From: Actinomycetales bacterium
Lineage (GTDB): Bacteria > Actinomycetota > Actinomycetes > Actinomycetales > Microbacteriaceae
Direction: 5' to 3'
Length of the DNA stretch: 38,764 nt
Assembly (NCBI GenBank): GCA_015655445.1
Contig: JAATFA010000120.1
Location: 1 to 38,764, forward strand
Shown here piece by piece: positions 17,497-23,930 of the stretch. The notes under the pieces are model-generated. The model made no database searches. It was not told the DNA's origin and saw only the letters and a list, made by a program, of their open reading frames with translations. A program made the position numbers and the translations under genes. Positions within the stretch are counted from its first letter, which is position 1. Each line of letters opens with the position of its first letter.

Positions 17497-18834
17497 TCAC
17501 GAGAGCACCGACTCGATGCCGGACTGCAAGGTCTTGAGGGCCGACTTCGAGTCGGTCTTGCCCTGCAGCATCGTCTGCGTGAACTGGTTGATGGCCGTCC
17601 CCGCGTCGACGGAGGCGAGGCCCGCGAAGAGCGTCGTGCCGCGGGCCGCGTAGCCCTTGCCCACCGGTCCCCACTCCTTGAGCACCTTGGCGACGTTCTT
17701 GTCGGCCTGCACCTGCGGCAGCGCGATGACCGACTTGTTGACGGGCAGCGAGCCGGTCACGCCCTTCGCGAAGAAGCCGTCCGTGCCCTGGAACTGCTTG
17801 AGCCACCAGATCATGAAGTCCTCGGACCCTTGCTGGCTGGGCGTGTCCGTGTACATCATGAAGTTCTTGAGGTACTCGAGCGTGCCCTTGTCGCCGTGGG
17901 GCCCGGCAAGCGGGCTCATGACGGCGAGGTCGTCCTCCGTGTCGCCCGCCTCGGAGGTGAGGGTCGCGTTGACGATCCCCATGGCGGCCTGTCCGTTCTT
18001 CCACTGGTCGTACAGGTTGTCCGTCGAGTAGCTCACCGAGGCCGGGTCGACCATTCCCGCGCCCACCATCTCGCGGACGAAGTCCATCGCCTCGACGTTG
18101 CGTGCGTAGAGGCAGTCCGGCTTGCCGTGCTCGTCGAAGAGCCCCCCGCCGTTGTTGATCATGAGCGAGACGAGCGCGTGGCCGCCGTACGAGGCGCCCG
18201 TGCCGGCCGCGGTCGCCCAACCGTACGCGCCGATCTTCGCGAGCGCCTTGCCCGCGGCGAGGAAGGAGTCCCAGTCGGTCGGCACGTCGACGCCGGCCTT
18301 GTCGAGGAGCGACTTCCGGTACCACATGGGGCGGATGTCCATGCCCCACGGCACGGCGACGTAGCCCTTGCTCGTCTTGAACGGCTCCGTGACGCCGGCG
18401 ACGTAGTCGTCGTACATGCCGTTCTTCTTCATCGTCTCGATGAGGTGGTCGGCGTAGGCGATCGCGCCCTCGTTCGCGAACTGGAAGGCCTGGAACGCGT
18501 ATCCGCCGCTCACCGCGGGTCCCTTCCCGGCAGCGATGGAGGCCTGGAACGTCTGGAAGAGGTTGGCCGCGGGGATGATCTGGTACTCCGCGGTGAGGCC
18601 GCCGTCCTTCCACCCCTCGATAAGGGTCTTCGAGAGCGTGTTGTACTCACCGGTGCCGAGGATGGAGTCCCAGTACTTGAGGACGCCCGTCGGCAGCTTG
18701 CCGGACGAGGCCTGCGGCCCCTCCCCGTCCGAGGCGCACGCCGCGAGGATCGGCACGAGGGTCGAGGCGCCGGCGAACGCCAGGAAGCTGCGGCGCGGGA
18801 GGGTGATGCGAGAGCTGGTGTCTGCGGTGTTCAT
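17497..18834 (-). CDS. ABC sugar-binding lipoprotein
   Basis: A 445-aa extracellular solute-binding protein (family 1). The signal peptide has a twin-arginine pair (Arg14-Arg15, LPRRSFLAFAG) and a lipobox ILAAC with Cys33, so it is probably a Tat-exported lipoprotein anchored outside the membrane. The mature part shows typical features (LKYWDSILGTGEYN, then AYGWATAAGTGASYGG). It is first in sugar operon 1, with a strong AGAGGAGA box. The ligand is unknown; the downstream isomerases and lactonase suggest a mono- or disaccharide. Confidence 0.93.
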   Translation of the reverse strand: MNTADTSSRITLPRRSFLAFAGASTLVPILAACASDGEGPQASSGKLPTGVLKYWDSILGTGEYNTLSKTLIEGWKDGGLTAEYQIIPAANLFQTFQASIAAGKGPAVSGGYAFQAFQFANEGAIAYADHLIETMKKNGMYDDYVAGVTEPFKTSKGYVAVPWGMDIRPMWYRKSLLDKAGVDVPTDWDSFLAAGKALAKIGAYGWATAAGTGASYGGHALVSLMINNGGGLFDEHGKPDCLYARNVEAMDFVREMVGAGMVDPASVSYSTDNLYDQWKNGQAAMGIVNATLTSEAGDTEDDLAVMSPLAGPHGDKGTLEYLKNFMMYTDTPSQQGSEDFMIWWLKQFQGTDGFFAKGVTGSLPVNKSVIALPQVQADKNVAKVLKEWGPVGKGYAARGTTLFAGLASVDAGTAINQFTQTMLQGKTDSKSALKTLQSGIESVLS

Positions 18835-19307: not shown

Positions 19308-19667
19308 TCAGCCCCAGCAGAGGCAGAAGGGGTGGCCGGAGGGATCCGCGTAGACCTGGAACCCCTCCTCGCGCGAGCGGTCGGCCTCCGTGAGCGGGCG
19401 CGCCCCGAGCGCGACGGCCTCGTCGTGAGCGGACGCGATGTCCTCGACGTACAGGTCGAGGTGGAGCTGCTGGGGGGCGCCGTCCGGCCACTCCGGCGGC
19501 ACGTGGTCGGGCGCGAGCTGGAAGGCGAGGCGCGGCTCGCCGTCGACGGACACCGTGTGCCAGTCGTCCTCCGCCTCGACCGTGCCGCCGAGCAGACGCG
19601 CCCAGAACGAGCTCTCCGCTGCGAGGTCCGCCGTGTCGAAGACGACGATCTGCCGTGTGATCTTCAT
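19308..19667 (-). CDS. VOC-family glyoxalase/dioxygenase-like protein
   Basis: A 119-aa vicinal-oxygen-chelate protein: MKITRQIVVFDTADLAAESSFWARLLGG at the start, QLHLDLYVEDIASAHDEAVALGARPL in the middle and VYADPSGHPFCLCWG at the end. This is the common small glyoxalase-like group in actinobacteria, of unknown activity. Possible metal ligands are the His of LHLDLYV and residues of the DPSGHPF motif. It is a monocistronic gene. Confidence 0.88.
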   Translation of the reverse strand: MKITRQIVVFDTADLAAESSFWARLLGGTVEAEDDWHTVSVDGEPRLAFQLAPDHVPPEWPDGAPQQLHLDLYVEDIASAHDEAVALGARPLTEADRSREEGFQVYADPSGHPFCLCWG

Positions 19668-19882: not shown

Positions 19883-20362
19883 CTATCGCGCGTGCTCGCC
19901 GCGGAGGCGTGCGACGTGCTGCTGCTGCAGGGCGGTCGCGCGCGTGACGAAGCGGTGGACGACGTCGAGCTCGTCGACGTCGAAGTGTTCCGCGACGTCC
20001 GCGGTGCTCGCCTCGAGCAGAGGCTCGAGCAGCGACCATGCGCGCTCGCGTCCTGCGGCCGTGATGCGGACGAGCGTCTTGCGCCGGTCGTCCGCATGCG
20101 GTGCGCGCGCGAGGTACCCGGCTCGCTCGAGACGGTCGATCATCGTCGTGACGCTTCCCGTGGTGAGGCCGAGGCGCTCGGCGATCGTGCGAGGGGTGAT
20201 CTCGGCGTCCGGGTCGCTCATGAGGATCTCGAGGCAGCGCAGGTCCGTGCTGTTGACCCGCAGGATCCGCGCCATCTCGCGGTCGAAGTCGTCCACGGCA
20301 GCCTGGTACTCCTGCATAGCGAGGCCGACCTCAAGTATCTTGAGCATCAAGTCACTTGACAT
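19883..20362 (-). CDS. MarR-family regulator
   Basis: A 159-aa winged-helix regulator. The DNA-binding region is STDLRCLEILMSDPDAEITPRTIAERLGLTTGSVTTMIDRLERAGYLARAPHADDRRKTLVRITAAG (about residues 38-105) with the MarR wing motif DDRRKxxVxIT. The start is the ATG at 20362 because GGAG lies 9 bp before it; the ATG at 20347 has no ribosome site. It is divergent from an FAD monooxygenase, the classic layout for a MarR repressor of a detoxification or aromatic-degradation gene. An unusual array of half-sites covers its start. Confidence 0.92.
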   Translation of the reverse strand: MSSDLMLKILEVGLAMQEYQAAVDDFDREMARILRVNSTDLRCLEILMSDPDAEITPRTIAERLGLTTGSVTTMIDRLERAGYLARAPHADDRRKTLVRITAAGRERAWSLLEPLLEASTADVAEHFDVDELDVVHRFVTRATALQQQHVARLRGEHAR

Positions 20363-20400
20363 TCAAGTCATCTCCGCCCATGATCGTTTGATCATCAAGT
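20330..20400. promoter_or_regulatory. Phased CTTGA/TCAAG operator array
   Basis: Alternating half-sites TCAAG (20331), CTTGA (20339), TCAAG (20347), CTTGA (20355) and TCAAG (20363) begin exactly 8 bp apart. The phase resumes at 20387 (TTTGA, one mismatch) and 20395 (TCAAG). This builds overlapping perfect palindromes such as CTCAAGTATCTTGAG, TCAAGTCACTTGA and ACTTGACATTCAAGT. It spans the marR start codon and the gap to the monooxygenase. MarR binding and autoregulation are inferred. Confidence 0.75.
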
Positions 20401-20423
20401 TATCAGGGGGAGGAGCGGTCGCC

Positions 20424-21635
20424 ATGACCAGGGCGCTCATCATCGGCGGCGGCATCGCGGGGCCCACGGCGGCCGTCGCGCTGCGCCGGATCGGCATGGA
20501 GGCGGAGGTGTTCGAGCAGCTGCCGCCCGACGCCGACCACCGCGGATCGTGGATCACCTTTCAGGCGAACGGTCTCGACGCCCTGCGCTCGATCGGCATG
20601 GGGCGATGGGTGGAGGGATTCGGGTACCCAGTCGACACGATCAGCTTCGTCAACGGCAGGGGCCGCCTGCTCGGGCGCATGCCCATGGCCTTCCGCCGCC
20701 CCGACGGCCTCACCTCCCTCATGATGCCCCGCGCGCGGCTGTTCGTCTCGCTCGCCGAGATGGCCCGTTCCGAGGGCGTGACGATCCATCACGGCAAGCG
20801 CATGGTCGATGCGCGTGCGAACCGCGACGGGGTCGTCGCATGGTTCGAGGACGGCACGGAGGCGACCGGCGACATCCTCATCGGCGCCGACGGCATCCAC
20901 TCGAGGATCCGCACGATCATCGACCCGAACGCGCCCGCCCCCCGCTACGTGCCCGTGCTCAACACCGGCGGGCACATTCCGAACTTCACGGTCGACGTGC
21001 CCCCACGCGACTTTCGGATGCAGTTCGGCACGAGATGCTTCTTCGCCTGGATGAACACGCCCGACGGCGGCACGGTGTGGTTCGCGAATCCGCCGATGCG
21101 GCGCGAGCCGACGCGCGGCGAGCTCGCACGCATGACCGACGAGCAGTGGCGGCTCTGGCTGCACGAGCTCATGGACGGCGACATCGGGCCGGCGTCGGCG
21201 ATCATCGACGCCGCCCCGGCGCCCATCCAGGGGTGGGCGACCTACGACATGCCCGTCGTGACGCGCTGGCACGACGGATCGCGCATGGTCGTCATCGGCG
21301 ACGCCGCCCACGCGACCTCGCCCGCCTCCGGGCAGGGCGCGTCCATGGCGCTCGAGGACGCCGTCATCCTCGCCCAGTGCCTGCGTGACTGCCCGACGGC
21401 GCGCTCCGCGTTCGCGACCTTCCAGTCGCTGCGCCGCGATCGCGTCGAGCGGATCGTCGAGATGGGACGCGCGTCGTCCGCCGACAAGGCCGCCGGGCCG
21501 GTCATGCGGGTCGTGCGCGACCTCATCCTTCCCCGCAAGTTCCGCGCGGCCGCCGCGGACGGGGGCGCCTCGATGATGTGGCTCCAGGGCCACCACATCG
21601 ACTTCGATCGGAGGGTCGCTCCCATCACCGCGTGA
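20424..21635 (+). CDS. FAD-dependent aromatic-type monooxygenase
   Basis: A 403-aa class A flavoprotein hydroxylase. FAD is bound by ALIIGGGIAGPTAAVALRRIGMEAEVFEQ (residues 4-32), the DG motif is ILIGADGIHSRIR, and the GD motif is MVVIGDAAHATSPASGQGASMALEDAVILA. These three motifs define the PHBH-like NAD(P)H-dependent monooxygenases that hydroxylate aromatic or related substrates or inactivate antibiotics. The ATG follows GGGGGAGGAG; the open frame further upstream is antisense to marR. Regulation by the divergent MarR protein is likely. Confidence 0.92.
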   Translation: MTRALIIGGGIAGPTAAVALRRIGMEAEVFEQLPPDADHRGSWITFQANGLDALRSIGMGRWVEGFGYPVDTISFVNGRGRLLGRMPMAFRRPDGLTSLMMPRARLFVSLAEMARSEGVTIHHGKRMVDARANRDGVVAWFEDGTEATGDILIGADGIHSRIRTIIDPNAPAPRYVPVLNTGGHIPNFTVDVPPRDFRMQFGTRCFFAWMNTPDGGTVWFANPPMRREPTRGELARMTDEQWRLWLHELMDGDIGPASAIIDAAPAPIQGWATYDMPVVTRWHDGSRMVVIGDAAHATSPASGQGASMALEDAVILAQCLRDCPTARSAFATFQSLRRDRVERIVEMGRASSADKAAGPVMRVVRDLILPRKFRAAAADGGASMMWLQGHHIDFDRRVAPITA

Positions 21636-22632
21636 AACCCGCCTGCTCGGCGGCAGCGTCCCCGCGCAGCACGGCCCCGCGCACGGCCGCGTCCACGGAC
21701 ACGCCGCCCTCGGCGAGCGCATCGAGCACGGCGCCGACGATGGGGACCGCGCCCTCGGTGACGACGCGGCATCGCGGCAGCGTACGGGCGAGCTCGCGGA
21801 CCGCCGCCGCGCGCACGAGCGGGTCGCGGACCACGGATCCGCCGAGCGTCACGGCGAACGGCTCGTCGGGCGCCAGCCCGACACGATGCGCGCACGCCCT
21901 CGCGTAGCACGCGACGCGACGGGCGTGCTCGTCGACGATCCCGACCGCGACGACGTCGCCGGCGGCGGCCTCCGCGAGCACGACGGGCGCTGCTCGCGCC
22001 CGCTCCCGGTGCGTGGCCCCCGAGCCGCCTCGTCGCGTGAAGGCGTGCAGCATCGCCTCGACCGACTCGGCGCCGTAGAACGCAGGGAGCGCGTGGGCGA
22101 GCGCCGTCGGCGGCGCCAGCCCGATCTCGGCCCGGTACACGGTTGAGAGCGCGTCGGCGACGAGACCGGCGGCACCCAGCGGATGCTGGAGCCACCACGA
22201 CAGGGCGAACTCGTCGCCACCGCGCCCACGTGCGGAGACCGCCGCGCCCGTGCCGAGCGCGATCGCGACCCCGACGCCGTCCGCGTCGCCGCAGCGCAGC
22301 AGTGCGAAACCGTCGTTCTTGACCGAGAGGGACCGCTCCGGCTCGAGCTGGCCCCGGACGGCGTCGATCCAGAGCCGCTCGTCCTCGGGCCAGTCGACCC
22401 CCGCGAGGCGGAAGGCCACGGCACGCAACGAGGAGCCTCCACGCTCTCGAGCGCAGGCGAGCGCCGCGTGCGAGAGGCGCAGCACCTCCGCGACGGCCTC
22501 GTCCGGATGCTCGACGCCGTAGATGTCGCCGAGGCCGCCGAGCGCGGAGCCGAGCACGACTCCGCGCGCGTCGGCGACGACGGCTATCGTCTTGGTGTTG
22601 CCGGCGTCGACGCCGAGGAAGAGCTCCGTCAC
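21625..22632 (-). CDS. BadF/BcrA-type kinase, N-acetylglucosamine-kinase-like
   Basis: A 335-aa ASKHA-fold kinase. The N-terminal phosphate-1 loop FLGVDAGNTKTIAVVAD, the VKNDGFALLRCG catalytic region, the adenosine region IALGTGAAVSARG and VTLGGSVVRDP fit the BadF/BadG family, which includes eukaryotic-type GlcNAc kinases. Phosphorylation of an amino sugar is plausible next to a NagB-like protein and a GH4 glycosidase. The GTG start overlaps the GH4 stop by 4 bp. It is the last gene of sugar operon 2; its 3' end overlaps the convergent monooxygenase by 11 bp. Confidence 0.85.
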   Translation of the reverse strand: MTELFLGVDAGNTKTIAVVADARGVVLGSALGGLGDIYGVEHPDEAVAEVLRLSHAALACARERGGSSLRAVAFRLAGVDWPEDERLWIDAVRGQLEPERSLSVKNDGFALLRCGDADGVGVAIALGTGAAVSARGRGGDEFALSWWLQHPLGAAGLVADALSTVYRAEIGLAPPTALAHALPAFYGAESVEAMLHAFTRRGGSGATHRERARAAPVVLAEAAAGDVVAVGIVDEHARRVACYARACAHRVGLAPDEPFAVTLGGSVVRDPLVRAAAVRELARTLPRCRVVTEGAVPIVGAVLDALAEGGVSVDAAVRGAVLRGDAAAEQAGFTR

Positions 22633-23930
22633 CGCAGCAGCCGCTCCGGGAGGTAGGCCGCATGGGCCGCCGCCATCTCGTCGTACAGCTCCTCGGCGAC
22701 CTTCAGGTTCTCCACGAGTGGGTTCGCCAGCAGCGCGCGGATTCCGTCCTTACGCGTGCCCTCCCAGCCGGCCCTCGCGGCGAGGACCTGATACTCGGCG
22801 AGCTGTTGCGTGATGCCGAGCACGGCATGCGGAAGCGGCTTCTGGGGACGGATGTGGAAGCCGCTCCTGTCGACGTCGCACCACACCTCGACGACCGTGT
22901 GCTCGTCGAAGCCCGGCAGCGCACCCCCCGCGTTCGGCAGGTTCACCGGCAGCGTAGCCCCCGTGTCGTTGTAGTGGGCGCTCATCACGTCGATCGCGAG
23001 CTCGAGCTCGTGGATGCCGCCGCGCGAGCGCTCCGGGTCGAGCTCCGGCGCCTCCGAGAGCGCCTGCTCGCGGTAATGCTCCCAGTAGCCCGGGATCGCG
23101 TCCATGATGACCTCCGCCCGCGTCTTCGCAGCACCCTGCTGCTCGCGAAGCAGCTCCTCGCGAAAGTAGTAGTAGTTGAAGTAGTCCGACGGGATCGAGC
23201 CCATCGTCACCGCGAGATGCAGCGCACGCCGTGCGTTCGCGTCGAGCGTGGGGTCGTGCTTCCGCTCCTCCCACGCCCGCTCGAGGAGCGGCATCACATC
23301 CTCCCCGTCATAGAGGTGCTCGGTGCTCCAGCAGTTGTGGTTGACGCCCGCCATCGTCACGCGGGCGCGTTCGGGGTCGAGACCCGCAGCCTTCAGCACG
23401 ACCGGCGGGAAGACGATCGGCCCCTCGCACATCGAGACGAGCGTGACGTCGCTGTACTGGGTCACGGCCTGGGCGACGATGTTGACCGGGTTCGTGTAGT
23501 TGAAGATCGTGGCGCCCGGCGCGACGGCATGCAGGTCGTCGACGACGCCCTTGAGGACGTTCACCGACCGCAGAGACATGAAGAACCCGCCCGCGCCCTG
23601 CGTCTCCTGGCCGATCACCCCGTGCTTGATCGGGATGCGCTCGTCGAGCGCGCGCGCCGGGAACCCGCCCGGACGGAAGCTCGAGAGCACAGCGTCGACG
23701 TCGCGGAGACCGGCACGGCGATCGGTCGTCGCGGTGACCGTGAGGTCGAGCCCCTGCGCGCGGATCATGCGCTCGGTGATCGTGCGCACGATCTCGAGGT
23801 GGTCGGGGTCGAGGTCGATGAGGACGATCTCGGACCCGGCGAACTCGGGCCCATGCCACAGCAGGGATGCCATGGTCCCGGCCGCCCGGGAGGATCCTCC
23901 GCCGAGGTATGCGAGCTTGATGCGTGCCAT
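22629..23930 (-). CDS. Family 4 glycosidase (NAD- and metal-dependent)
   Basis: A 433-aa GH4 enzyme. The N terminus KLAYLGGGSSRAAGTMASLL is the GH4 NAD-binding loop, followed by VLIDLDPDHLEIV. The metal-ligand Cys is in VSMCEGPIVFP and the His in MAGVNHNCWS; NYTNPVNIV and the Tyr-rich IPSDYFNYYYF catalytic region are also present. GH4 enzymes cleave glycosides by transient oxidation at C3, most often 6-phosphoglycosides such as those made by PTS import. Here the importer is ABC-type, so an unphosphorylated substrate, or one phosphorylated by the neighbouring kinase, must be considered. The ATG at 23930 is chosen because the NAD loop starts there. Confidence 0.9.
   Translation of the reverse strand: MARIKLAYLGGGSSRAAGTMASLLWHGPEFAGSEIVLIDLDPDHLEIVRTITERMIRAQGLDLTVTATTDRRAGLRDVDAVLSSFRPGGFPARALDERIPIKHGVIGQETQGAGGFFMSLRSVNVLKGVVDDLHAVAPGATIFNYTNPVNIVAQAVTQYSDVTLVSMCEGPIVFPPVVLKAAGLDPERARVTMAGVNHNCWSTEHLYDGEDVMPLLERAWEERKHDPTLDANARRALHLAVTMGSIPSDYFNYYYFREELLREQQGAAKTRAEVIMDAIPGYWEHYREQALSEAPELDPERSRGGIHELELAIDVMSAHYNDTGATLPVNLPNAGGALPGFDEHTVVEVWCDVDRSGFHIRPQKPLPHAVLGITQQLAEYQVLAARAGWEGTRKDGIRALLANPLVENLKVAEELYDEMAAAHAAYLPERLLR

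Follow-up and report, generated by a model that had tools for sequence, protein, structure and literature searches.

The gap between a marR-type gene and a divergently oriented monooxygenase gene is crowded with short inverted half-sites, and the question is whether these form a continuous lattice, on which a MarR protein could bind in many ways, or a small set of discrete operators. The analyzed stretch of DNA (38,764 nucleotides, contig JAATFA010000120.1 of an Actinomycetales bacterium) is referred to below as the window. The two genes are as follows:

19883..20362, minus strand: marR (P0001), 159 aa, a MarR-family winged-helix regulator (PF12802, PF01047, structure matches)
20424..21635, plus strand: FAD_binding_3 monooxygenase (P0002), 403 aa, the likely target gene (PF01494, 87.7 bits, cut-off 22)

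The MarR winged-helix domain was found with 51.3 bits for PF12802 (cut-off 27) and 49.3 bits for PF01047 (cut-off 24.6). Modeling of the protein using AlphaFold2 with a 14-row alignment led to a model with a pLDDT of 94.0, and its Foldseek matches include ST1710 (3gfj, E 3.5e-08) and MepR (5fb2, E 1.1e-07). The protein scored below the curated NCBIfam equivalog cut-off in 12 of the 12 models listed, the best being FabT (36.9 bits vs 200). The monooxygenase was below every curated NCBIfam cut-off among the matches listed (25 of 60), and its best PDB matches were the flavoprotein monooxygenase 3rp8 (E 1.8e-31) and 6-hydroxynicotinate 3-monooxygenase 8uiq (E 1.8e-29). A Glyoxalase_6 protein is also encoded near the pair (19308-19667), and three further neighbours lie on the minus strand: 17497-18834 encodes an extracellular solute-binding protein, 21625-22632 a BadF-type ATPase and 22629-23927 a family 4 glycosyl hydrolase.

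An earlier sequence-only reading had described five half-sites at 8-bp steps with a later return of the phase. Direct reading of the DNA confirmed each coordinate: TCAAG starts at 20331, CTTGA at 20339, TCAAG at 20347, CTTGA at 20355 and TCAAG at 20363, and the phase returns with TTTGA at 20387 and TCAAG at 20395, the spacing between any two starts being a multiple of 8 bp. The alternating CTTGA/TCAAG run at 8-bp steps has a length of five, and in 300 second-order Markov windows it did not exceed two (296 windows with one, 4 with two). A generic control in which the 5-mer was free and the step could range from 5 to 14 bp gave maximum runs of four in 30 Markov windows and of three in 3000 random 105-bp gaps. 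The half-site array is real and far beyond chance.

The unit of the array had to be corrected from an alternating 8-bp half-site to a 13-bp palindrome, CTTGA-N3-TCAAG, which is present in three copies designated O2, O1 and O3. The elements of the array are as follows:

20339..20351, no strand: O2, CTTGAGCATCAAG, the second perfect copy (10/10), in marR codons 4-8, 16 bp from O1
20355..20367, no strand: O1, CTTGACATTCAAG, centred on the probable start codon of marR (minus strand) and containing the predicted -35 of the divergent gene
20387..20399, no strand: O3, TTTGATCATCAAG, with one mismatch, covering the expected monooxygenase transcription start, 32 bp from O1
20331..20335, no strand: the fifth half-site, TCAAG, in the 8-bp phase and unpaired
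20347..20359, no strand: the inverse palindrome TCAAGTCACTTGA between O2 and O1, judged to be a by-product

The run of five half-sites thus consists of two complete palindromes (O2 and O1, at a 16 bp step) and one orphan at 20331. The 8-bp alternation results from the 5+3 bp within each palindrome and the 3 bp that separate O2 from O1, and this same separation gives rise to the inverse palindrome between the two sites. Note that the orphan half-site forms a second inverse palindrome with O2, which is not explained by the arithmetic of O1 and O2. No CTTGA was found at 20323, i.e., 8 bp ahead of the orphan, which is possibly a chance occurrence. Relative to the likely start, the first bases along marR are at -37 for O3, -5 for O1 and +11 for O2. 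With three palindromes, the proposal of a multi-site operator region at this MarR promoter, more densely occupied than by one or two palindromes, was borne out.

A divergent marR gene together with a monooxygenase homologue (61-69% identity) was found in seven fetched relatives (loci L021, L022, L023, L024, L031, L093 and L096). L021 and L022 belong to the window genome's own family and L023 and L024 to Tsukamurella; L031, L093 and L096 are, judging by identical coordinates, in the same genus as the latter two and are hence probably also Tsukamurella. O1 is kept in all seven (in L096 with two mismatches), and its central triplet is the likely marR start codon in the window and in each of these relatives (ATG; TTG in L021). 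A counterpart of O3 was found in six of the seven. O3 and its counterparts, which are non-coding for marR, deviate from the palindrome by no more than one base in 7 of 7 loci (the window, L021, L022, L023, L024, L031 and L093), and they lie 32 bp from O1 in the window, L023, L024, L031 and L093, 38 bp from it in L021 and 47 bp in L022. L096 has two sites 16 bp apart with two mismatches in each. O2 was found at the window's position in none of the seven relatives and in none of the 13 other loci with a start-centred site described below. In a DNA alignment of the gap with six rows (the window, L021, L022, L023, L024 and L031; L093 and L096 were left out), the conserved blocks are O1, identical in all rows save one central base, and O3, while O2 is absent from the other five rows. 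A pseudopalindromic site in the gene's own divergent gap, conserved among relatives, is what is expected of a MarR autorepressor with a divergent target, and such a site is present here. The sequence-only reading had named the absence of the array from relatives with the same gene pair as a result that would speak against it, and this absence is partial: O1 and O3 persist as stated, and the five-half-site run cannot occur in any of the seven relatives because the inverse palindrome is absent from them (≤2 mismatches). The 16-bp pair is missing in six of the seven and weak in L096.

To place these loci in the wider family, 55 MarR loci were scanned, of which 53 are distinct (L094 and L095 duplicate L023 and L024 and were not counted). 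The weaker MarR matches L011-L020 and the repeats L006, L028-L030, L079, L081, L082 and L092 were excluded from the scan. The genome searches are samples of 398, 394 and 297 genomes; the 394-genome search contributed 30 loci and listed more matches than these 30. A site centred on the start codon (≤2 mismatches) was found in 14 of the 53 loci, including the window, and the other 39 were without it; the script that chose the start codons favoured centred ones, so that the trait is somewhat favoured in this count. In a tree of 52 MarR proteins (L094, L095 and L027 were left out), one group of 18 rows (support 84/84, not starred) contains all 14 start-centred loci, and its remaining rows are L034, L035, L083 and L084, which have no such site. 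The start-centred label needs 4 changes on the tree vs a mean of 12.6 in shuffles, none of 500 being as low. The start-centred subfamily was found in three actinobacterial family groups (f1, f11 and f26). In four Streptomyces-family loci (L032, L033, L036 and L080), three sites lie ahead of marR and the last of them is centred on the ATG; a monooxygenase homologue was not found in the fetched stretches of these loci, and the divergent reading frame in L032, L036 and L080 encodes a similar protein of 162-179 aa. No account of the window operator or of a start-codon-centred MarR operator was found among the matches listed in searches of open-access literature.

The claim that the array reaches into the marR coding start holds if the start is ATG 20362, which is the likely one and is favoured by the comparison with relatives. 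An alternative start, the ATG of codon 16 (20317, MQEYQ...), would make the array wholly non-coding; the conservation of ATGTCAAG (TTGTCAAG in L021) in all 14 start-centred loci speaks against it, and it was rejected. The following expression signals were assigned:

20372..20379, minus strand: purine-rich GGGCGGAG, a possible ribosome-binding site upstream of the marR start, a weak match in the window
20356..20361, plus strand: TTGACA, the -35 of the predicted monooxygenase promoter, within O1, by consensus match only
20379..20384, plus strand: CATGAT, the -10 of the predicted monooxygenase promoter, 17 bp past the -35, with 4/6 consensus bases

In L024, L031 and L093, AGGAGG stands 8 nt ahead of the marR start. 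TTGACA is kept in all 14 start-centred loci, and 11 of them have a hexamer with at least 3/6 of the -10 bases 17 bp after it, 3/6 being weak evidence. Five loci (the window, L023, L024, L031 and L093) have 4/6 at this distance; the values for L096, which has the same gene pair and keeps TTGACA, L036 and L085 are 2/6, 2/6 and 1/6, respectively. With this promoter, O3 would cover the expected start of the monooxygenase transcript. A convincing marR promoter was not found: the scan of 20200-20550 gave one sigma-70-like site on the plus strand and none on the minus strand.

The spacing of the sites was compared among the 14 start-centred loci (≤2 mismatches per site). Pairs at 16 bp occur in seven of them (the window, L096, L086, L032, L033, L080 and L036), as do pairs at 32 bp (the window, L023, L024, L031, L093, L032 and L033). 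Outside the window, every 16-bp pair has at least one site with 1-2 mismatches, and mostly both sites have them. According to our own grouping, the 16-bp step is found in four of eight lineages, including that of the window; random placement matches this with a probability of 0.0007 for 16 bp and of 0.0054 for any distance, and a 16-bp pair in at least three loci was seen in none of 2000 shuffle sets. From O1, the next distal partner is found at differing distances (32, 38, 47, 42, 54, 31 and 27 bp), which argues against a strict lattice. The 16-bp step is a tendency and no rule, since neighbour distances of 27, 31, 38, 42, 47 and 54 bp occur as well. At 10.5 bp per turn, 16 bp corresponds to 1.52 turns (189 degrees) and 32 bp to 3.05 turns (17 degrees). 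O1 and O2 are thus two adjacent palindromes about 1.5 turns apart, as in arrangements of the AesR/Rv2887 type. In Qipengyuania, a MarR gene with 36% identity is preceded by two sites of the CTTGA-N3-TCAAG type exactly 16 bp apart (L025:2402-2430), with 0 and 1 mismatch; its start codon is not centred, and a monooxygenase homologue was not found in the fetched stretch of L025.

A continuous half-site lattice, on which several MarR dimers would bind in more than one register or form a short filament, has in its favour the five exact half-sites at 8-bp steps with the phase held as far as O3, and the orphan at 20331, which is in phase too. However, the inverse register, TCAAG-N3-CTTGA (≤2 mismatches), is missing in eight of the 14 start-centred loci (L096, L021, L022, L023, L024, L031, L093 and L033), and the earlier suggestion of several binding registers was not upheld. 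In five of the six loci that have it (the window, L032, L080, L036, L086 and L085), one inverse match sits between two sites 16 bp apart. Three matches have another origin, namely the second one of the window, the second one of L036 and the only one of L085, the L036 and L085 matches outside 16-bp pairs having 2 mismatches; these three make the by-product reading of the inverse palindrome incomplete and, in the case of L085 and L036, speak for a lattice. In L033 and L096, a 16-bp pair is present but no inverse match. A cooperative lattice or filament would call for consecutive equally spaced sites kept in relatives; two 16-bp steps in succession were seen in none of the 14 start-centred loci, and the idea of filament-like binding was not supported. 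In addition, the distance of the distal site is no multiple of 8 in L021, L022, L085, L086, L080 and L036. We consider the lattice to be very improbable.

A more serious alternative, possible although clearly the less probable reading, is that only O1 and O3 are functional and that O2 and the fifth half-site came about by chance or through drift at the 5' end of marR. The absence of O2 at that position from all seven relatives with the same gene pair agrees with this, as does the fact that six of the seven have just two sites, O1 and a counterpart of O3. Against it, O2 is perfect and lies at exactly 16 bp from O1, a pair that shuffles of the window keeping O1 reproduced in 0.0005 of 2000 trials (≤2 mismatches), and the 16-bp step is also seen in other lineages. 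It could also be argued that the sequence is conserved for the Met-Ser N-terminus of marR and for the -35 hexamer and that the likeness to an operator is only apparent: TTGACA and the start codon both lie within O1, all 14 proteins share S2, and in 7 of the 14 loci the non-coding O1 arm ahead of the start codon is degenerate (1-2 mismatches). This outer arm is perfect in the other seven, however, the serine codon 2 is TCA in 14 of 14, and the low mismatch count of O3 and its counterparts concerns non-coding DNA. We regard this explanation as hardly credible.

The genome of the window (2.96-Mb, 86% complete) contains two perfect sites, and both of them, O1 and O2, are located here. At ≤1 mismatch, 47 places were found vs 64 for the reversed control pattern; a regulon in this genome was therefore not supported, and the MarR regulator looks to act locally, judging by site counts. 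In two Tsukamurella genomes, two of three perfect copies lie within the marR/monooxygenase gap, and the reversed control gave 4 in each. A class-wide near-exact search for the pair gave matches in 9 of 394 genomes and 0 for the reversed control among the matches listed. This search misses the degenerate Streptomyces-family pairs and is no measure of the 16-bp step. Matches of the array kind came from the window's genome and from G698 (L072, the same gap as L031). Five f27 genomes (loci L065, L066, L067, L068, L069, L074, L075, L077 and L078) contain long hairpin-like repeats that start with CTTGATCATCAA and end with TTGATGATCAAG, the highest number per genome being at least four among the matches listed. 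Two f11 genomes (loci L070, L071 and L076) contain a perfect 30-bp double palindrome, CTTGACCTTCAAG and CTTGAAGGTCAAG separated by 4 bp, with a 17-bp step. The L070 copy, which may be a MerR-type site, precedes a likely oxidoreductase gene (read by eye).

The sites and their positions, the conservation of O1 and O3 and the overlap of O1 with both the likely start codon and a hexamer of the -35 type, all read from the DNA, allow us to assume with good confidence that the MarR-family repressor encoded divergently has its operator here in three copies and would control both genes. In the mechanism that we infer, with regard to binding, stoichiometry, opposite-face geometry and release by a ligand, a MarR dimer on O1 would block RNA polymerase at the monooxygenase promoter. 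A dimer on O3 would cover both the monooxygenase start site and the DNA in which the marR transcript has to start, and the two dimers, 32 bp apart, would share one face of the DNA. A dimer on O2, placed on the opposite face beside that of O1, could tighten both the occupancy of O1 and the autorepression of marR. A ligand would release the dimers; an aromatic compound on which the monooxygenase acts is the probable candidate. The favoured view of O2 is that of a window-specific addition to O1 and O3, and its use lacks the backing of conservation because it was found in one genome only. In the MarR model, helix 1 spans residues 3 to 33 (pLDDT of the first ten residues 88), so the residues encoded by O2 (codons 4-8) belong to its beginning, and O2 may have arisen within a tolerant coding stretch of marR.

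Discrete dimers at O1, O3 and O2 are favoured because published MarR arrangements, those of Rv2887 and AesR, are similar. According to the available text on Rv2887 of Mycobacterium tuberculosis, the structure shows a 30-bp DNA to which two MarR dimers are bound from nearly opposite faces, with ~15 bp under each, which is the geometry proposed for O1 and O2; unlike the window, the recognition is GC-rich with a proposed indirect readout, and the site and target are different (PMC5526998). AesR of Corynebacterium glutamicum, as far as the available text describes it, is likewise a MarR-family protein with a divergent target operon and side-by-side palindromes, one of them with a 3-bp centre; the palindromes give one 44-bp footprint, to which its authors think one or two homodimers bind, and their centres are 17 bp apart by our count from the quoted sequence, whereas the half-site is ACTATG (PMC13413800). 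In the portion of the report available, SCO3205 of Streptomyces coelicolor is an actinobacterial MarR protein with two related operators of TTGA...TCAA-type half-sites in a divergent gap and nanomolar binding to 24-bp footprints, fitted 1:1. It differs from the window in a 4-bp centre (our reading), in two separate, non-overlapping binding peaks and in a marR-side motif located 21 nt upstream of the gene (PMC3737563). YvmB/PchR of Bacillus subtilis, in the sections available, is also a MarR protein whose own promoter contains three boxes in its region, and two palindromes act cumulatively in repression; unlike the window, the boxes are of 14 bp within longer palindromes and the regulon has four transcription units (PMC4992311).

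Such control by a repressor of itself and of a neighbouring oxygenase gene would be a neat but mostly familiar bacterial scheme. The most interesting element is not the 8-bp lattice but the placement of the start codon and the -35 hexamer in one conserved operator. A spacing rule for the whole subfamily can be offered as a speculation that we hold to be rather unlikely: operators would tend to follow each other at 16-bp steps, with dimers interlocked on opposite faces and anchored at the start-codon-centred site. The operator, -35, start and first codons would then evolve as one 13-bp unit, and further operators would be added upstream, as in the Streptomyces-family loci and L096, or into the coding sequence, as in the window. 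If the proposed operator is real, one 13-bp word would serve as operator, as -35 hexamer and as start codon with the next codons, and would be kept across a MarR subfamily. These loci, with neighbouring sites at 16, 27, 31, 32, 38, 42, 47 and 54 bp, would then provide a natural test of the cooperation of MarR dimers at 1.5-turn spacing.
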